Positions 529-26,572 of a stretch of 34,286 nucleotides of DNA are shown here, piece after piece; the stretch's first letter is position 1; the number at the start of each line of letters is the position of its first letter. Source of the DNA: a virus. A program made the position numbers and the translations under genes. The notes under the pieces were generated by a model, which saw nothing but the letters and a program-made list of their open reading frames with translations, had not been told where the DNA came from and did no database searches. Where the stretch lies: IMG/VR virus record IMGVR_UViG_3300032770_000068, positions 1 through 34,286 of that record; one strand, written 5' to 3'.

Positions 529-2076
529 ATGGATGAGCACGGGGCTACGCTCCTCGGCGAGCAGGAGCCGACCTACCGCTACGTACCTCCTGGCGCCGTG
601 GGCGGGTGGGGTCAGGAGGCTGTCGAGCTGGCCGAGAGCATCGGGTTGCACGCTGACCCCGGCCAGCAGGACATCGTCAGGAGCGGGCTGTCCACCAGGG
701 TCACCGGGAAGTGGCTGTCTACCGAGGTGGCCGACATCGAGCCACGCCAGAACGGCAAGAGCGTGGCGCTGGAGATTCGCGCGCTGGCCGGATTGTTCCT
801 GGTCCAGGAGCCTCTCATTGTCTGGACCGCGCACGAGTTCAAGACGGCGATGCAGGGCTTCGGCCGGATGAAGCAGCACATCGACAACTGGGATCATCTG
901 CGCAAACGTGTCAAGGCCATCCGGACCAGCACGCACGCCACCGAGATTCAGATGATGTACGGCGGCGTTCTGAGCTTCCTGGCACGCTCCGGCGGATCCG
1001 GCCGTGGATTCGCCGGTGTCAGCCCGTTGTTTCTCGACGAAGCCTTCGCCATGACCTCCGAACAGATGGCGGCGCTCATGTTCGCCATCTCGGCCGCCGA
1101 CAATCCCCAGGTCTGGTATGCGTCGAGCGCCCCGCTGGTCAGCTCGGATGTGCTGCGGCCGATCGTCAAGCGTGGCCGCAAGGGTGCGCCGGGCATGACT
1201 TACTACGAGTGGTGTGCACGAGACAAGTATCCCGACATCATCAAGGTGGTGCAGGAGGCCAGGGAGCGAGTCTTGTCCGATGAGCCGGTTTCGGACAAGC
1301 TGTGGGGCTATGTCCGTCAGGCCAACCGGGCATTCAATCTGCGCATCGATGCGGAAACGATCAGGCGTGAGCTGCGGTCGGTGCCGCCGGAACAGTTCGC
1401 CAGGGAGCGCCTGGGATCGTTCTCCGATCTTGAGGACGGCGGTCGGCTGGATCCGGACAAGTGGGGCTCGACCACTGATGAACTCTCGCATCGCGCTGAG
1501 GGTGCCGACATCGCGATCTTCGTGGACATCGACGTCAACCGGGAGTGGGCCTCCATCGCCATGTTCTCGATGCGCGAAGACCTCCTGGGTCACGTGCAGA
1601 TCATCGACCATCGGCCCGGCGTTTTCTGGCTGGCTGACCGCATTGCCGAGATCAAGGGCACGCTGAAGCCCCTGTGTATCGGCATGGGGCGCGGCACGCA
1701 TGCCTCACTGAAGGAGGCATTGCTTGATCGGGGGATCGGTCAGCCCGCCGATTTCACCAAGGACCGGGATCCAATGTTCCCGATCGAGCGTGGTGACTTG
1801 ATCGTGCTCAACGGGGTGGACATGGCGGCGGCGTGCGGCCGGTTGATCGACGCCGTGCAGGAAGAGACACTGCGGCATGTGCCGCATCCGGCCCTGGACA
1901 GAGCGGCCAGTAAGGCGCAGACCCGTATCGTGGGTGACACGATTAAGTGGGTGCAGACGGATACCTCGGTGAATTTGACCGCGCTGATCGCCGCTACGGG
2001 CTCGGTATGGGCGTATGACGCGCGTATCGCCACGGTGCCCGATGACTATGATCCTCTCGGGGACATCCATTTCTGA
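529..2076 (+). CDS. terL: Terminase large subunit
   Basis: A 515-aa packaging motor that translocates DNA into the prohead by ATP hydrolysis and cuts concatemers with a C-terminal RNase H-like nuclease. A Walker A-like PRQNGKS is at residues 72-78 and a Walker B LFLDE at 167-171. The nuclease half opens with the acidic strand IFVDIDVNREWASIA. The length is normal for actinophage TerL. A GAGGAG ribosome binding site overlaps the terS stop, and the bases just before the ATG (CCAGGGCA) recur before several other late genes. Confidence 0.95.
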   Translation: MDEHGATLLGEQEPTYRYVPPGAVGGWGQEAVELAESIGLHADPGQQDIVRSGLSTRVTGKWLSTEVADIEPRQNGKSVALEIRALAGLFLVQEPLIVWTAHEFKTAMQGFGRMKQHIDNWDHLRKRVKAIRTSTHATEIQMMYGGVLSFLARSGGSGRGFAGVSPLFLDEAFAMTSEQMAALMFAISAADNPQVWYASSAPLVSSDVLRPIVKRGRKGAPGMTYYEWCARDKYPDIIKVVQEARERVLSDEPVSDKLWGYVRQANRAFNLRIDAETIRRELRSVPPEQFARERLGSFSDLEDGGRLDPDKWGSTTDELSHRAEGADIAIFVDIDVNREWASIAMFSMREDLLGHVQIIDHRPGVFWLADRIAEIKGTLKPLCIGMGRGTHASLKEALLDRGIGQPADFTKDRDPMFPIERGDLIVLNGVDMAAACGRLIDAVQEETLRHVPHPALDRAASKAQTRIVGDTIKWVQTDTSVNLTALIAATGSVWAYDARIATVPDDYDPLGDIHF

Positions 2077-2085
2077 GGAGCGCGG

Positions 2086-3339
2086 ATGAGCTGGTGGGCA
2101 CCATGGCGACGTGAGGAGCGCGCGTCCGTGCCTCAGCCGACGTTCACGCCGACGTCGTCATACATCGTGGCCGGATCGAGCCCGTTCGCCTACGCCGACG
2201 GCAGTCAGATCTCTGCCGCCGCCCAGTCGGTGGCCGTGTCCAGCGCGGTGGACCTGATCGCGTCGATCGTCTCCGAGCTGCCCATTCAGGCCTACAGCGG
2301 GCAGGGTGGTGCGCGGCGCAAGATCAAGACTCCGTCCTGGCTTGAGGATCCGGCCGGTGACGGGCACGGCGTCGAGGACTGGATGGCGCAGGGCCTGTAC
2401 TCCTGGCTGTACCGGGGCAACCTGTACGGCGGCGTACTCGCGCGCAGCTCGACGGGATTCCTCCAGCAAGCCGTCCTGTTCCACCCCGATTCCGTCTCGG
2501 GTTACATCGACGATCAGGGCGTTATTCAGTGGAGCGTTTCCGGGGTGACCGGCGCGGCGAATTTCAGCTCGGTCGGCGGCGCTTTCCTGCATAAACGGGT
2601 CAATGTCATCCCGGGAGTCGTGCAGGGTGAGAGTGTGATCAGCAGGCATGCTCGCCAGATCGGTCTGAGCCTGGCCGCGACCGGATTCGGGAAGTCCTTC
2701 TTCGACTCGAACGCCATGCCGGTAGGTATCCTGCGTAACACCGTGGCGCCTATCGGTCCTGATCAGGGGCGTGAGGTCAAGCAGGGTTTCATGTCCTCGG
2801 TCACCGGTAGCCGGGAGCCGATCGTCATGGGGCGAGGGTGGGAGTACGACCAGCTCTCCGTCAACCCCGAGGAGAGTCAGTTTCTCCAGACCATGGGCTA
2901 CACCGAGGCTCAGTGTGCGCGAATGTTCGGCCCTGGCATCGCGGAGATTCTCGGCTATCCGACCGGACAGCAATTGACCTACGTCAACCTTCAGGACCGT
3001 GATATTCAGTTGCTGAAATACGCGGTCAACAAGTGGGCGAAGCGGATGGAGCGGCTCCTTTCGGAGTTCCTGCCCAAGCCGCAGTACGTGGAGTTCGATC
3101 GGGATGCCCTGCTGGCCACCAACACGCTTCAGCGCTACCAGTCGTATACGGCGGCGCTGGCCGGGCGCTGGATGACGGTCAACGAGGTTCGCGACTTGGA
3201 GAACGAACCGCCCGTTGCCTGGGGCGATGAGCCGAACGGGGCCAGCGCTCCGGCTCCGGATCCCGTCGGTGACCCTGTCAGTGACCCCGCGAACGACAAC
3301 GCCACCCCGCCCGACAGTGCTCCCCAGGAGAATCCGTGA
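2086..3339 (+). CDS. Portal protein, HK97 family
   Basis: A 417-aa protein of the HK97 portal family, which forms the dodecameric ring at the unique vertex through which DNA enters and leaves. The N-terminal block SVAVSSAVDLIASIVSELP and the middle EILGYPTGQQLTYVNLQDRD stretch are typical. The C-terminal ~35 residues are a low-complexity tail rich in Pro, Ala and Asp. It starts 10 nt after terL with a GAGGAG-type ribosome binding site, in the standard TerL-portal-protease order. Confidence 0.93.
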   Translation: MSWWAPWRREERASVPQPTFTPTSSYIVAGSSPFAYADGSQISAAAQSVAVSSAVDLIASIVSELPIQAYSGQGGARRKIKTPSWLEDPAGDGHGVEDWMAQGLYSWLYRGNLYGGVLARSSTGFLQQAVLFHPDSVSGYIDDQGVIQWSVSGVTGAANFSSVGGAFLHKRVNVIPGVVQGESVISRHARQIGLSLAATGFGKSFFDSNAMPVGILRNTVAPIGPDQGREVKQGFMSSVTGSREPIVMGRGWEYDQLSVNPEESQFLQTMGYTEAQCARMFGPGIAEILGYPTGQQLTYVNLQDRDIQLLKYAVNKWAKRMERLLSEFLPKPQYVEFDRDALLATNTLQRYQSYTAALAGRWMTVNEVRDLENEPPVAWGDEPNGASAPAPDPVGDPVSDPANDNATPPDSAPQENP

Positions 3340-3633: not shown

Positions 3634-4461
3634 GTGACCCGTTCACTGCGTGGCCTGTACGCGATCCGGGGCGGGTTCGCCTCCCCCTCGCTGGCCGAGC
3701 GCGTCAAGCCCGATGTTTCACGTGAAACCGAGCCTGAGCAGGATGCTGCCCCGGCCGATGAGCTCGGTACGCTGCGTGTCGATTTCTCCGTTTTCGATGT
3801 CTGGTATCGGATCAGCTCGGCGTGGGAGGGCATCTTCATGGAGCGCGTCTCGCCGGGTGCGTTCAAGAAGACCTTGGCGGAGCGCGGCGGCCAGACCAAA
3901 ATCCTGTTCAATCACGGTCAGGACTTGACCATCGGGGACAAACCCCTGGCCGTGGCCAGCGACTTCGGTGAGACGAAGAACAGCGCCTTCCTGGAAGGCG
4001 CCTTGCTTGACACCTCGTACAACCGAGATCTTGCGCCGGGCTTGCGTGTTGGAGCGTACGGCGCCTCCTTCATGTTCGAGGCGCTCGGGGAGAACTGGGA
4101 CTACGAGCCCGAGGCGTCGGCCAGCAACCCTGAGGGGCTGCCGGAGCGCACCATCACCGAAGTGCGTCTGATGGAGGCAGGGCCGGTCACGTGGCCCGCC
4201 AACCCGGCCGCCACGGCCGGGTTGCGTAGCGGCGCGAGCTGGTTCGGGGAGGAGCTGCGTTCCCGCGAGCCCGACCGCTACGATGACCTGGTACGCACTT
4301 ACGCCGCATTCCGGGCGCTGAACGGGCTGAGCACCCCGATCGAGATCGAGGCCGTTCGTCAGCAGGCGCTGAAGGACGTCGTGCAGCCGACACCCGAGCC
4401 GGGCCGTCACAGCATGAGCAAAGGCGAGCGGAACCGCAGACTGTTCATGCTGACCCGCTAG
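3634..4461 (+). CDS. Prohead protease (HK97/U35 type)
   Basis: A 275-aa serine protease that matures the capsid by removing the delta domain of the major capsid protein. Candidate catalytic residues are His94 in ILFNHGQD and Ser145 in AYGASFMFE, and the ITEVRLMEAGPVTWPANPAA block is typical of the family. The GTG at 3634, preceded by GAAGGGG, is chosen over the in-frame upstream ATG at 3424, which lies inside the previous gene. The N-terminal linker (residues 28-33, VSRETE) encodes an exact parS site and precedes the protease fold, so the peptide is unlikely to be catalytic. Confidence 0.92.
   Translation: MTRSLRGLYAIRGGFASPSLAERVKPDVSRETEPEQDAAPADELGTLRVDFSVFDVWYRISSAWEGIFMERVSPGAFKKTLAERGGQTKILFNHGQDLTIGDKPLAVASDFGETKNSAFLEGALLDTSYNRDLAPGLRVGAYGASFMFEALGENWDYEPEASASNPEGLPERTITEVRLMEAGPVTWPANPAATAGLRSGASWFGEELRSREPDRYDDLVRTYAAFRALNGLSTPIEIEAVRQQALKDVVQPTPEPGRHSMSKGERNRRLFMLTR
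3715..3728. promoter_or_regulatory. parS: parS-like centromere site 1
   Basis: Perfect palindrome GTTTCACGTGAAAC, identical to the 14-bp core of the chromosomal parS site bound by ParB across bacteria, including Streptomyces. The flanks are T on the left and C on the right (consensus T...A). It lies in the protease gene and encodes VSRET. Identical sites are at 6200 and 7052. Confidence 0.85.
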
Positions 4462-4474
4462 GGGGAAACCAGAG

Positions 4475-5908
4475 ATGACTCTGGAGGAAATGCGTGCTCG
4501 GCGCGCCGCCATCGAGGCGGAGCTGCGAGGCATCAATGAGGCGGCCGGGGATGCCGCCCTGACCGACGAGCAGGCCACCCGGTGGACTTCACTGGAGTCC
4601 GAGCACGTCACGCTCGGTGAGGGCATCGAGCGTGAGGAGCGTTCCGCCCGGATCGCCGAGTCCCGTGCGCGCTGGGGCACGGTTCAGATGGGCGTGAAGG
4701 AGGATCCGTTCGACGGTTCCGACGTCCGTTCGCTGCCGCGCGCCGAGGCCCGCTCGAAGGCACTGGCCGTGCTGGAGCAGCGCGAGAACACGTACCACCT
4801 GGAAAACCTGTCGGGCACTCAGGCCCGCGTCGACCGGTTGGTCCGGACGCAGAGCAACAATTTCAACGGCGACCAGTTCGCCCGCTACATGCTGGCCAGC
4901 GAGAGTGAGGCCTACCGCAGCGCGTTCATGAAGCTGATTGGTGGAGGTGCCCCGGTCCTCACGGCCGAAGAGGGCCGCGCCGTCAACCTGGTCAACGAGT
5001 TGCGCGCGGCCATGTCGCTGACCGCCGCGAACGGTGGTTACGGCGTCCCGGTCCTGATCGACCCGACGATCATCCTGACCGCGCAGGGTCACCCCAACGA
5101 CTTTTTCGACATCGCCCGGGTGGAGGACATCACTACTTCGACGTGGAACGGTGTCTCGTCGGCGGGTGCCACGTCCTACTGGGCGACTGAGGGCATCACG
5201 GTCACCGGTGGTGAGCCGACCCTGGCGCAGCCCACCGTTCCCACGAAGAAGCTGACCACGTACGTCAAGTATTCGTTCGAGGTCGGCGGGGACTACCCCA
5301 ACTTCGCGTCCGAGATGGCGAACGTGATGGGCAGCGCGCATCAGGAGGCGCTGGTCAGCGCGTTCACGATCGGTCTCGGCACTACCGCTCAGCCGACCGG
5401 TATCTCGACCTCGCTGAAGGCAACGTCCGCGTCTCAGGTCCTGGTGAGCACCGACGGCAGTCTGTACGCGGCCGATCTCTACAAGTTGTGGGCTGCTCTG
5501 CCGATCCGCTACCGTGGCGCGGCGCGCTGGATGGCGTCGACGTCGGTGCTCAACGCCGTGCGTCAGTTCGCTGCCGGATCGAACAACTCGGACGCCAACT
5601 TCACGGTCAGCGTCGGCCAGGAGACCGTGGACCGGTTGTTCGGCAAGCCCGTCCACTACAACGACTACATGGATCCCGCCGTCGGCACCAACGGTGCCAC
5701 TTCGGCGTCGTCTCTGGGTCTGGTCATCGTCGGTGACTTCCGCAACTTCCTGATCGCCAACCGCGTCGGGGCCACCGTCGAGACGGTTCAGCACGTCCTC
5801 GACACGACCACCGGCAACCCGACCGGACAGCGCGGGACGCTGATGTGGGCTCGGATCGGCAGCAACGTCATCAACTCGTCGGGCTTCCGTCTGCTGACGC
5901 AGGCCTGA
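4475..5908 (+). CDS. Major capsid protein, HK97 fold
   Basis: A 477-aa capsid protein. Residues 1-70 are a charged coiled coil (MTLEEMRARRAAIEAELR...), the usual delta/scaffolding domain removed by the prohead protease, which explains why no separate scaffold gene is seen. The rest is the HK97 shell fold, with YVKYSFEVGGDYPNFASEMAN-type E-loop/P-domain sequence and a glycine-rich A-domain. The start has GGGGGAA 14 nt after the protease stop. Two inverted repeats follow the stop, which may set high expression relative to downstream genes. Confidence 0.93.
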   Translation: MTLEEMRARRAAIEAELRGINEAAGDAALTDEQATRWTSLESEHVTLGEGIEREERSARIAESRARWGTVQMGVKEDPFDGSDVRSLPRAEARSKALAVLEQRENTYHLENLSGTQARVDRLVRTQSNNFNGDQFARYMLASESEAYRSAFMKLIGGGAPVLTAEEGRAVNLVNELRAAMSLTAANGGYGVPVLIDPTIILTAQGHPNDFFDIARVEDITTSTWNGVSSAGATSYWATEGITVTGGEPTLAQPTVPTKKLTTYVKYSFEVGGDYPNFASEMANVMGSAHQEALVSAFTIGLGTTAQPTGISTSLKATSASQVLVSTDGSLYAADLYKLWAALPIRYRGAARWMASTSVLNAVRQFAAGSNNSDANFTVSVGQETVDRLFGKPVHYNDYMDPAVGTNGATSASSLGLVIVGDFRNFLIANRVGATVETVQHVLDTTTGNPTGQRGTLMWARIGSNVINSSGFRLLTQA

Positions 5909-5916
5909 TCGAAACT

Positions 5917-5990
5917 CCGCCGGTTCCTTCCCCGTGACCGGCGGGCATAGGTTGTGGGGGACGTGGCTTGCCCTGGACATGTCCCCCACA
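5917..5990 (+). terminator. Two hairpins after the capsid gene
   Basis: Perfect stems CCGCCGGT/ACCGGCGG (5917-5924 with 5937-5944) and TGTGGGGGAC/GTCCCCCACA (5953-5962 with 5981-5990, loop 18 nt) lie in the 108-nt gap after the capsid gene. There is no U-tract, so they may act as partial terminators or mRNA stabilisers that raise capsid mRNA over the following genes. Confidence 0.55.
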
Positions 5991-6016
5991 CACCACCCAG
6001 GGCAATGGGAGAGAGC

Positions 6017-6289
6017 ATGAGCGAGAGCTACGTATACGCCTCGGATAGCTGCCTGACCGAGTTTCAGGGACAGCCCGTGCAGGTCGTGCGCGGACAGGCG
6101 TGGGGATCCGAGGATCCGTTCGTCAAGGCGCGCCCCGACCTGTTCCGCGACCCCGACTCGGTGCGGCGCACACCCGGTTATACGGGACCGAAGCGTCGTG
6201 TTTCACGTGAAACCGAGCCGCGTATCGAGACGGTGACCGCCGCCCCTGGAGAGCGGCGGGGTACCACTCAGCGGCGTGAGACGATCTGA
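6017..6289 (+). CDS. Hypothetical head-region protein carrying parS site 2
   Basis: A 91-aa protein of unknown function. The ATG at 6017 has GGAGAG upstream; an in-frame ATG at 6005 has the recurrent CCAGGGCA leader and could also be the start (95 aa). The N-terminal half (YVYASDSCLTEFQGQPVQVV, then WGSEDPFVKARPDLF) looks folded, and similar short proteins occur after capsid genes in actinophages. The C-terminal half is charged and probably disordered, and contains VSRETE at residues 62-67 encoded by a parS palindrome. Confidence 0.75.
   Translation: MSESYVYASDSCLTEFQGQPVQVVRGQAWGSEDPFVKARPDLFRDPDSVRRTPGYTGPKRRVSRETEPRIETVTAAPGERRGTTQRRETI
6200..6213. promoter_or_regulatory. parS: parS-like centromere site 2
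   Basis: Exact GTTTCACGTGAAAC, again followed by CGAG and encoding VSRETE, in the disordered C-terminal part of the small protein after the capsid gene. The left flank is T, as in consensus parS. Confidence 0.85.
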
Positions 6290-6292
6290 CTC

Positions 6293-7084
6293 ATGACCGA
6301 TAACCAGGGCAACCCTGTCTCCGTGCTGGCCGTGACGCTGTGCCCGCCCGATGGGCAGAACTCGACGAGTTTCACCGATTCGCTGATGCGTCTGTTCGCC
6401 CACGATGCCACCACCACCGGCAGCCTCATCCGTGGTGGTGGCCCGATGCTGCTCCCGGCCAGTCCTAACACCATCCCTGACCGGCGCAACCAGGCAGCGG
6501 CCTATCTGCTCGACGAGTCCTCGGCCGACTGGCTGCTGTTCATCGACTCCGACATGGGTTTCAGCGAGAACGCGCTGGAGATGCTGCTTGACGCGGCCGA
6601 TCCCGTGGGTGCCCCGGTCATCGGCGCTTTGTGCTTCGGGCTCCGTCAGGTCGAGGCGGACGGCGTCGGCGGCTTCCATACGCAGCCCTTCCCGACCTTG
6701 TACGACTGGACGGAGAACAAGGAAACCCGCAAGTGGGGCTTTTCCTTGCGCTACGACTACAGCGCCGACGTCGTCACCCAGGTAGCGGCCACCGGGGCGG
6801 CTTTTCTGCTGATTCATCGCAGCGCGCTTCAGGTCATGCGTGAGCAGATGGGCGACGTGTGGTTCGACCGGGCGCGCATGGAGGCGGGCGAAGGTCTGAT
6901 GGGGGAGGACATCGCGTTCTGTGCCCGTCTCGGCCGCCTTGGGATTCCCTTGTTCGTGCACACGGGGGTGCGCACCACGCACCTGAAATCCGTGTGGGTC
7001 GACGAAGAGTTTTATCTCGGGCAGCGCACGCTCGCCATGATGCGGGCCGATGTTTCACGTGAAACCGAGGCGGTTCAGGAATGA
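6293..7084 (+). CDS. Glycosyltransferase-like protein 1 (GT-A fold)
   Basis: A 263-aa protein resembling family 2-type glycosyltransferases, which move sugar from a nucleotide-sugar to an acceptor. A metal/nucleotide-binding DxD lies in LLFIDSDMGF (Asp85, Asp87); ATGAAFLLIHR and GEDIAFCARL match the acceptor and catalytic segments of the family. It is closely related in layout to the next gene. Position inside the head operon suggests the acceptor is a virion protein, but DNA or a cell-surface glycan is not excluded. Its C-terminal nine residues contain VSRETE from parS site 3. Confidence 0.82.
   Translation: MTDNQGNPVSVLAVTLCPPDGQNSTSFTDSLMRLFAHDATTTGSLIRGGGPMLLPASPNTIPDRRNQAAAYLLDESSADWLLFIDSDMGFSENALEMLLDAADPVGAPVIGALCFGLRQVEADGVGGFHTQPFPTLYDWTENKETRKWGFSLRYDYSADVVTQVAATGAAFLLIHRSALQVMREQMGDVWFDRARMEAGEGLMGEDIAFCARLGRLGIPLFVHTGVRTTHLKSVWVDEEFYLGQRTLAMMRADVSRETEAVQE
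7052..7065. promoter_or_regulatory. parS: parS-like centromere site 3
   Basis: Exact GTTTCACGTGAAAC near the 3' end of the first glycosyltransferase gene, encoding VSRET at residues 254-258 of 263. It shares TGTTTCACGTGAAACCGAG (19 bp) with the other two sites. Confidence 0.85.
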
Positions 7085-7800
7085 CGACGGCCCCGAGCGT
7101 CTTCGCCTACTACTTGACCAACGGCGGCCGAGTGGAGCATGCTTTCATGCGTTCCCTGATCGGCGTCACGCACACCTCGGGCAGGCGCATGGTCGGTGGC
7201 TGGCCGCATCACAGGGTCACCCGGACCATGGAGCTGCCAGACGCGCGCAACGAGATGACAGCGGCATTCCTGAATTCGGACGCGTCGTGGATGTGGCAGG
7301 TCGACTCCGACATGGGGTTCGAACCGGACACCCTAGAGCGGATGCTGAAATCTGCGGAGATGTCGGGTGCGTCCGTACTCGGCGCGTTGTGCTTCATGTG
7401 GTCCCCGGCCAGTCCGGACGGCATGGGCGGTTACCGGGGAATGCCCGTGCCTACCCTGCACGAGTGGGACGGCAGCGGTTTCGGCATGTGGTCCCTGGCC
7501 GCGCAGGACTATCCACGCGGTCAGATCATCCCCGTGGGGGCGACCGGGGCCGCGTGCCTGCTCGTGCATCGGACTGCCGCGCTGGCCATGCAGCAGCAGT
7601 ACGGGGACGAGTGGTGGACGCCGGTTCGCTACTCCGACGGGCGGACTCTCGGAGAGGATCTGTCCTTTTTTTATCGCCTGTTGCACTGCACGGCAGCTAA
7701 GCCGCCCGCGTTCGTCGACACGGCGATCAAAACGACCCACGCCAAGACCGTGTGGATCGGCGAGCGGGACTACGAGTTGCACCGGGGCGTGACCCTGTGA
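7081..7800 (+). CDS. Glycosyltransferase-like protein 2 (GT-A fold)
   Basis: A 239-aa paralogue of the preceding gene, started at an ATGA overlap. It keeps DSDMGF (Asp75, Asp77), the GALCF motif, VGATGAACLLVHR and GEDLSFFYRL at matching spacing, so the pair probably arose by duplication. It is expected to be a cytoplasmic sugar transferase. The two may act in sequence or as a heterodimer; that is inference. The parS peptide present at the end of the first copy is absent here. Confidence 0.82.
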   Translation: MTTAPSVFAYYLTNGGRVEHAFMRSLIGVTHTSGRRMVGGWPHHRVTRTMELPDARNEMTAAFLNSDASWMWQVDSDMGFEPDTLERMLKSAEMSGASVLGALCFMWSPASPDGMGGYRGMPVPTLHEWDGSGFGMWSLAAQDYPRGQIIPVGATGAACLLVHRTAALAMQQQYGDEWWTPVRYSDGRTLGEDLSFFYRLLHCTAAKPPAFVDTAIKTTHAKTVWIGERDYELHRGVTL

Positions 7801-8531: not shown

Positions 8532-9108
8532 GTATGCCGATCTTGACGAGCTGAAAAGCATGCGTCAGATTCCGCTCTCCGACACCACCGACGATACGGC
8601 CCTGACGAACCGGATCGAGCGTGCCTCGCGCGCCATCGACGATCGCACAGGTCGCCGGTTCTACCTCGACTCCACGGCTACGGCCAGGGTTTTTCCGGTC
8701 ATGGGTCGTACCGTCGTGCGGGCCACGGGCCAGCTCTTACTCGTCGACGACATCGGCTCCGAGACGGACCTGATGATCTACATCGGCGGGGAATATCAGG
8801 ATCTGTCGGGAATCAGCTATTCGCCGGACAACGCGATCGTGCGCGGACGACCCATCACTGGCCTGCTGATGACGAGCAACTCCTGGGGCACGGACGACGT
8901 ACAGGTGTATGCGAGGTGGGGCTGGCCGAGCGTTCCGTCAGCTATCGTCGAGGCGACTCTTCTACTGGCCAATCGACGTTGGTTTCGCAAGGAGAGCCCT
9001 GAGGGCGTTGCGGGGCGCGGCAGCGACGGCCCGATTCAGGTCTCCCGCTTCGATCCGGACGTCGAGGACCTCGTAGCCCCGTTCGTGATTCCGGGGTTCG
9101 GCTCATGA
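8521..9108 (+). CDS. Head-tail connector/adaptor protein
   Basis: A 195-aa protein of the phage head-tail adaptor type that docks under the portal. The helical N-terminus with LTNRIERASRAIDDRTGRRF and the segment VYARWGWPSVPSAIVEATLLLANRRWFRKESP are hallmark features. The GTG start overlaps the end of the third glycosyltransferase gene by 11 nt. It is followed by the tail terminator through an ATGA overlap, as expected for the neck module. Confidence 0.85.
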   Translation: MANEYADLDELKSMRQIPLSDTTDDTALTNRIERASRAIDDRTGRRFYLDSTATARVFPVMGRTVVRATGQLLLVDDIGSETDLMIYIGGEYQDLSGISYSPDNAIVRGRPITGLLMTSNSWGTDDVQVYARWGWPSVPSAIVEATLLLANRRWFRKESPEGVAGRGSDGPIQVSRFDPDVEDLVAPFVIPGFGS

Positions 9109-19010: not shown

Positions 19011-19189
19011 GATCCTCCTTCGTGGGGATAGGGAGCGGCCCGCCCGGGATGACGTCCCGGGCAGCTCGCGACTCGGCCGTGATGGGCCCCGTGCCGCTCC
19101 CCCGATAACCACCCGCTCGCCGGAGCTACCGGCTGAAGAGGTGGGGTCGGCCGGGCCCCGCGGGAGCTACCCGCTGACAACCGGCCTCG
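19011..19189 (-). ncRNA. Highly structured leader/noncoding RNA region
   Basis: This 179-nt gap between a tRNA-like gene and the next leftward gene is full of pairings: outer stem GGGAGCGGC/GCCGCTCCC (19031-19039 with 19093-19101) enclosing GCCCGGGA/TCCCGGGC (19042-19049 with 19055-19062), and two hairpins with the same AGCTA loop, GCCGG/CCGGC (19119-19133) and GCGGG/CCCGC (19160-19174). It is probably transcribed leftward. Its role is unknown. Confidence 0.45.
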
Positions 19190-19260
19190 TGCACCTGTCG
19201 GGAATCGAACCCGCGTCCTCCGCTGGAATTGCGACGGCTCTACCACTGAGCTATAGGCGC
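19190..19260 (-). tRNA. tRNA-like gene, isotype unresolved
   Basis: A 71-nt cloverleaf on the leftward strand: D-arm GCTC/GAGC with AGTGGTA loop, and T-arm with TTCGATT loop. The acceptor GCGCCTA/CAGGTGC has a 7-66 mismatch and one G-U; the T-stem has a 49-65 mismatch. The anticodon arm GTCGC/GCGGA has loop AATTCCA, lacking U33; by position the triplet would be UUC, but Gly UCC by shifting is also conceivable. No encoded CCA. Confidence 0.65.
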
Positions 19261-19306: not shown

Positions 19307-19939
19307 CTAGACGCGCTCCAAGGTCACCTTGGTGATCCAAGACGGGTTGCCGCCGTCGTTGGGCTTCTGGCCGATCCGCGCGACGGTCAGCCGCAGGCCC
19401 ACCATCTCCGCACTGGATCGCAACCCAAGGCGGCGGATCTCGTTGCGGAGCTGTTTCAGGTCGTCACCTGAGGCGTAGAACGCTCGCGTGCCGTCGTCCG
19501 GGGTACTGACGTCACGCCCCGTGGCCGCACTCTCGGCCGCGTCGAAGCGGTAGTCGGTGCCGAGCACCACCACGGTGTCCTTGACCGGCTGGTTCTTCTC
19601 TCCCGTGCCCGGATCGATCGCGATCGGGCCGACCTTGTGCAACTTCCCCTTATCGAAAACGGGAGTCTTCAAGAAGTACTTCGGGAGCTTGGTGTTGTAG
19701 TCCCGGGCGTGCACGTCGTACGGGGCCTGGCTGATGATGCCCGTCCGCACGCTGTTCAGCAGATGCGTCTTGTTCAGCAGGGAGGGCGGCATCACCGGGC
19801 CGGAGAAGAGCTGGCTCTCCTCGGGAGCCCAGGCCTGAGCCAGATTGCCGCTCGTGTCCCGGGCCATGGTCGACTCGGCGGCAGTCTCGGAGATCTGCGG
19901 GGCCATGGCTGCGGCGGCAGCCGCGAAAGCGTTGGTCAT
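19307..19939 (-). CDS. Hypothetical early protein, possibly DNA-binding
   Basis: A 210-aa protein. The N-terminal 35 residues are Ala-rich and flexible, followed by EESQLFSGP, a motif shared with the exonuclease gene. The middle (FLKTPVFDKGKLHKVGPIAID, KDTVVVLGTDYRF) and C-terminus (LRLTVARIGQKPNDGGNPSWITKVTLE) are beta-rich, compatible with an OB-like ssDNA-binding fold, but this is not certain. Its context with exonuclease, helicase and prim-pol genes fits a recombination/replication role. Confidence 0.75.
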   Translation of the reverse strand: MTNAFAAAAAAMAPQISETAAESTMARDTSGNLAQAWAPEESQLFSGPVMPPSLLNKTHLLNSVRTGIISQAPYDVHARDYNTKLPKYFLKTPVFDKGKLHKVGPIAIDPGTGEKNQPVKDTVVVLGTDYRFDAAESAATGRDVSTPDDGTRAFYASGDDLKQLRNEIRRLGLRSSAEMVGLRLTVARIGQKPNDGGNPSWITKVTLERV

Positions 19940-26326: not shown

Positions 26327-26572
26327 ATGCGCATCATGGATCGCCTCATGCAGACCAGCATCGACGTCGACCGGATCATGCTGCTACCGATCGGGGACAT
26401 CCTGATCGACATCGACGCAGGGCACATCGTCGTGGGATTCGAGCCTACCGACGACGGCCCGGACGTCGAGTGGTGGACCGCGACGCGCTACGACGACGAG
26501 GGCACTGAGTCGTTGATCTACGAGGGGACCGACGTGGCTGCCCTGATCCGCCGCCTGCTCGCGGCCCGCTAG
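26327..26572 (+). CDS. Small hypothetical early protein
   Basis: An 81-aa acidic protein (ILIDIDAGHIVVGFEPTDDGPD, then YEGTDVAALIRRLLAAR) of unknown function, with an alpha/beta look. It has the CCCACGAAGGAG leader before its ATG and is the first rightward gene after the divergent promoter. Confidence 0.75.
   Translation: MRIMDRLMQTSIDVDRIMLLPIGDILIDIDAGHIVVGFEPTDDGPDVEWWTATRYDDEGTESLIYEGTDVAALIRRLLAAR

Follow-up and report, generated by a model that had tools for sequence, protein, structure and literature searches.

Carriage of host-type parS sites is probably a widespread phage strategy that has evolved convergently, also among phages of non-sporulating actinobacteria: on this view the sites are written into the linkers of portal, protease and glycosyltransferase proteins, turn over faster than the genes that hold them, and would put host ParB and SMC to use in DNA organisation, persistence or takeover. 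The case starts from the window (the whole stretch of DNA analysed, a virus record of 34,286 bases read at full length), which contains three exact matches to the chromosomal-type parS consensus, the palindromic 14-mer GTTTCACGTGAAAC. In Streptomyces and other actinobacteria the parS of the chromosome has a 14-bp core identical to these sites, and ParABS is the chief system by which bacteria segregate their chromosomes. As the best explanation we lean slightly towards one in which the phage genome takes on host ParB and is thereby coupled to host segregation. The published example of a phage exploiting ParABS, phi29, is explained by sporulation; the results below suggest that exact host parS is kept as DNA in phages from several groups of bacteria, some of them non-sporulating. 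The general question of what a phage gains from being marked as chromosome can now be tested directly, and phages for such tests exist as isolates with complete genomes. Our search of the open-access literature found no survey of host parS in phages.

A scan of the window located the sites where the initial annotation had reported them, and also bore out its claims that 19 bp are common to the three and that each reads as VSRETE:

3715..3728: parS site 1, exact match, V-S-R-E-T in frame in the N-terminal linker of the capsid maturation protease; missing in relatives
6200..6213: parS site 2, exact match, V-S-R-E-T in frame in a small connector-like gene; a 5-residue insertion relative to the relative L137
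7052..7065: parS site 3, exact match, V-S-R-E-T in frame in the C-terminal tail of a glycosyltransferase; missing in relatives
3714..3732, 6199-6217 and 7051-7069, plus strand: the 19-bp unit TGTTTCACGTGAAACCGAG common to all sites

All three sites use the same reading frame and lie within 3.4 kb of structural-region genes. Base composition predicts 4e-5 exact copies in the window (the earlier figure of 0.0001 was of the right order), none of 100 dinucleotide shuffles of the window gave three matches (mean 0.03 at up to two mismatches), and GTTTCACGTGAAAC is the only palindromic 14-mer that is repeated there; on these grounds a chance origin was rejected. No fourth copy is present anywhere in the window at up to two mismatches. 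The core of the palindrome is CACGTG, which would fit binding by a different conserved host factor or a CACGTG-based restriction or modification site, but we regard this as very improbable. With 15 copies in the window where 11.7 are expected, the 6-mer CACGTG is not what selection acts on, and it was rejected as the selected unit; what is conserved is the entire 14-mer, which matches parS exactly, and phi29 switches to the B. subtilis-type form.

The surrounding genes of the window are as follows:

529..2076, plus strand: terminase large subunit (phrog_9, E 5e-42)
2086..3339, plus strand: portal protein (phrog_12, E 2e-40)
3634..4461, plus strand: capsid maturation protease, with site 1 (phrog_80, E 7e-25)
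4475..5908, plus strand: major capsid protein, without a site, used as the query for relatives (phrog_10, E 1e-49)
6017..6289, plus strand: small protein, possibly a head-tail connector, with site 2 (phrog_9538, E 0.0016, a weak match)
6293..7084, plus strand: glycosyltransferase-like protein 1, with site 3 (phrog_34859, E 4e-28)

The first description of the sites as lying inside phage head genes thus holds for site 1, in the capsid maturation protease, and fails for the other two, one being in a gene whose connector match is weak, the other in a glycosyltransferase gene. Open reading frames homologous to the gene at 6017..6289 occupy the same place in the relatives L137 and L138. In the window this gene is followed by three glycosyltransferase-like genes and then by connector, tail and lysis genes; the adjacent, overlapping genes at 6293-7084 and 7081-7800, beside the head genes, look like paralogous glycosyltransferase-like proteins. 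The right half encodes a WhiB-like protein, a helicase, a primase-polymerase and an exonuclease, and the WhiB-like protein and the relatives point to an actinobacterial host. Two tRNA genes lie on the minus strand, tRNA-Glu (ttc) at 19189-19260 and tRNA-Pro (cgg) at 26424-26498. Recognised maintenance genes are absent from what the window shows: it has no match to ParB_N (PF02195), the domain sought as a sign of the parA and parB that a plasmid prophage with phage-encoded parABS would have, and none to the tyrosine and serine integrases (PF00589, PF07508) of integrating temperate phages, in a record that may be incomplete at its ends. Since the phage has no detectable ParB, the chromosomal ParB of its host should recognise the sites, and it very likely binds them; for a phage with parS that lacks ParB, the host's is the only one it would encounter.

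Relatives were gathered by a major capsid search, and about 150 loci (2.2 Mb) were examined. The nearest by major capsid identity, L137 (65%) and L138 (63%), have surrounding genes in common with the window, yet L137 has no parS site and L138 has none over its whole 38.5-kb record; across all of the roughly 150 loci none was found at up to two mismatches. Conservation of the sites throughout the phage's own clade was therefore discarded, and the case rests on lineage-specific insertion and on recurrence elsewhere. Given close relatives without them, the sites are not essential. When the three proteins are aligned with those of the relatives, VSRET stands out in each of them as an insertion of about 4-6 residues that only the window has, and every time the insertion falls in a poorly conserved linker or tail; in the site 2 gene, KRRVSRETEPRIE in the window corresponds to PAPDVPRVE in L137, a 5-residue insertion. 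The codons used, GTT-TCA-CGT-GAA, are rare: given VSRET, the codon usage of this phage makes their probability 6.8e-5 per site. Among 4.45 million six-frame residues of the relatives VSRET occurs 3 times, never in parS codons.

That the relatives do without VSRET and that the window spells it in rare codons identify DNA as the object of selection, and indicate that the sites have been kept as DNA and acquired independently of the proteins in which they are now encoded. Selection on the peptide, with VSRETE as a functional motif in, for example, proteolysis or assembly, could draw on the single reading frame common to all three genes, but only two of the three frames through the site avoid a stop, other phages use the FHVK frame in 25 of 71 coding-like sites and have further sites between genes, and the peptide is missing and the codons rare as described; we consider this alternative almost certainly wrong and have rejected it. 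The relatives do not keep VSRETE under synonymous changes but lack it altogether, and the earlier proposal that the DNA site, not the peptide, is selected gains further support from the presence of the same site in unrelated phages and from its exact conservation in diverged pairs.

Recurrence was assessed in the viral contigs of IMG/VR by scanning for the site with G/C-biased flanks, and at least 120 parS stretches were found, against 1 for a control of equal composition, the reversed palindrome, over the whole collection. Some parS-bearing contigs may be host DNA, and gene context was therefore examined. Four are bona fide phage contigs by this measure: one has three sites in genes of the portal and protease region (L392; portal phrog_776, capsid phrog_777), one has two in its portal gene (L394), one has two at or in a portal-protease-capsid fusion (L312), and one has two in glycosyltransferase genes (L397), as at site 3 of the window. 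Among records with a portal match, 6 of 10 have a site within about 2 kb of it, a possible enrichment; the pattern is not general, as the sites of the isolated phages VroomVroom and Emotion are spread over the genome. Two 64-kb viral contigs each have four exact parS within 1.6 kb (G033, locus L330, 2383-3977; G012, locus L107, 277-1880); neither contig has a ParB_N match, and a phage, a plasmid or a host segment is possible for each.

The isolated phages were queried with the 22-bp extended parS, which matched 242 records, whereas its reversal, used as the control, matched 0. Exact sites per whole record number 6 in VroomVroom and 7 in Emotion, both Arthrobacter phages, 3 each in Ranunculus and BruhMoment, 2 each in Woes and Voltaire, and 1 in Galactica. 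Arthrobacter, the host of the phages with the most sites, does not form spores; spore entrapment is therefore not the general benefit, and as the sole general benefit it was set aside. VroomVroom, Emotion and Woes have no ParB_N match, and VroomVroom has no annotated integrase. ParB_N is matched in 5 of 39 environmental parS-bearing records (3 over the cut-off) and in 3 of 9 parS-bearing isolates (1 over the cut-off); a general link of the sites to phage-encoded ParB was discarded, as it would cover a minority only.

The sites are also conserved between diverged isolates. VroomVroom and Emotion are 76% identical over a 37 kb alignment, in which only 8.3% of the 14-column windows are identical throughout; against this background, 4 of the 6 VroomVroom sites are kept exactly at matching Emotion positions, three of them intergenic, and their flanks differ. 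At position 4968, in the scaffolding gene, an in-frame site is present in one of the two phages and absent from the other, and other sites have been gained or lost. Of the Ranunculus sites, one lies in the portal gene and two in the protease gene; those of BruhMoment are all three in the protease gene, and the two phages, at 71% identity, have two sites in common at corresponding positions of that gene.

Several further arrangements were seen among the isolates. The Emotion (OQ709216.1) sites at 19680 and 20042 have more than 20 further flanking bases identical, which suggests recent local duplication as one way in which sites multiply. Gordonia phage Woes (KU998240.1) has parS at 71020 and 71441, with a spacing of about 420 bp and close to the right end of the genome; the second of these is intergenic and forms a perfect 22-bp extended palindrome, and about 20 related Gordonia phages group with this observation. 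In Glutamicibacter phage Voltaire (OV696617.1, 18 kb) the sites at 8743 and 8762, offset by 19 bp, immediately precede the gene for the major tail protein, and the 6.2-kb record of Tortoise microvirus 39 (MK765589.1) has a perfect 22-bp extended parS at 3223-3244. Microbacterium phage Metamorphoo (NC_047988.1) has parS at 43535 in a DNA-binding-protein gene and a ParB_N match at 49702-49959, 6 kb away; its group may have a partition system of its own that uses the host-type site.

In the ParABS system, parS is where ParB is loaded in the form of a CTP clamp; from there it spreads, and it interacts with ParA and SMC (PMC12704722; PMC12511625). On the reading we prefer, the chromosomal ParB of the host would recognise the sites of the infecting genome, load there as CTP clamps and spread across the head-gene region, and the genome would become a target of the host's ParA and SMC segregation machinery. 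The most likely benefit is that a phage genome that does not integrate would in this way be positioned, held and carried along with the host chromosome while lysis is delayed, whether in slow growth, in a carrier state or, if the host sporulates, in sporulation, as phi29 does via Spo0J. That the phage draws a segregation benefit from ParB loading we would put at an even chance; against the preferred reading, it is hard to see what need a strictly lytic phage would have of partition.

Two other uses of host ParB are serious rivals to this, especially for phages of the non-sporulating Arthrobacter. Replicated phage sites might draw ParB, and SMC with it, away from the host origin and so disturb host segregation and division to the benefit of the phage. 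Such titration is an unlikely reading, though it would suit the several sites per genome, which replication would multiply, in phages that show no match to ParB_N, and the presence of VroomVroom, with no annotated integrase, among the site-rich phages; extra parS-like copies of the element SGI1 do destabilise its helper plasmid (PMC10954446). Titration would, however, favour arrays, which are rare here, a phage genome has 1-7 sites against the 16-17 of the Streptomyces chromosome (PMC12511625), and in phi29, the case that has been studied, Spo0J is reported to serve entrapment (PMC9437464). Alternatively, ParB clamps and SMC might compact, untangle, protect or place at the pole the replicating phage DNA during the lytic cycle, with no role in inheritance, as the recruitment of SMC by Streptomyces ParB complexes (PMC12511625) would allow. 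The missing integrase annotation of VroomVroom and the recurrence of sites in late structural genes are in keeping with such a role, but most relatives of the window phage manage without the sites, and we rate this role, too, as unlikely.

Loading of host ParB can be set beside several known systems. Extrachromosomal actinobacterial prophages of the cluster A mycobacteriophage type have their own ParA, ParB and distinct parS for partition of the phage genome; partition of a phage genome would be the function in common, and the difference is that they encode ParA and ParB whereas the window has no ParB_N match. SGI1 is stabilised by parS-like copies that bind the ParB of its helper plasmid (PMC10954446), and is thus likewise a mobile element with parS mimics that owes its stability to the ParB of another replicon; unlike the window phage it is an integrative element and not a phage, and what it exploits is the ParABS of an IncC plasmid, not that of a chromosome. 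The 16-17 parS of the S. venezuelae chromosome are clustered around oriC (PMC12511625), whereas the three sites here fall in a 3.4-kb stretch of phage structural-region genes. In phi29, Spo0J (ParB), a chromosome-segregation protein, is reported to trap the phage genome inside the spore (Meijer et al. 2005, as cited in PMC9437464). As a positive control, phi29 yielded four exact B. subtilis-type parS, TGTTTCACGTGGAACA, and it resembles the window phage in having several exact host-type parS within and between genes (the connector gene among them) and in annotated features that include no ParB-like gene, the window having no PF02195 match in a record whose ends may be incomplete. Host ParB, as Spo0J, is reported to act on the phi29 genome (PMC9437464). 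The two differ in that phi29 is an unrelated podovirus of a Firmicute with TGTTTCACGTGGAACA, and the phages here are unrelated siphophages of actinobacterial type with GTTTCACGTGAAAC, the window sites all being in-frame coding insertions within 3.4 kb. Recruitment of host ParB would be the natural consequence of carrying such sites, and phi29 is the published case of it.
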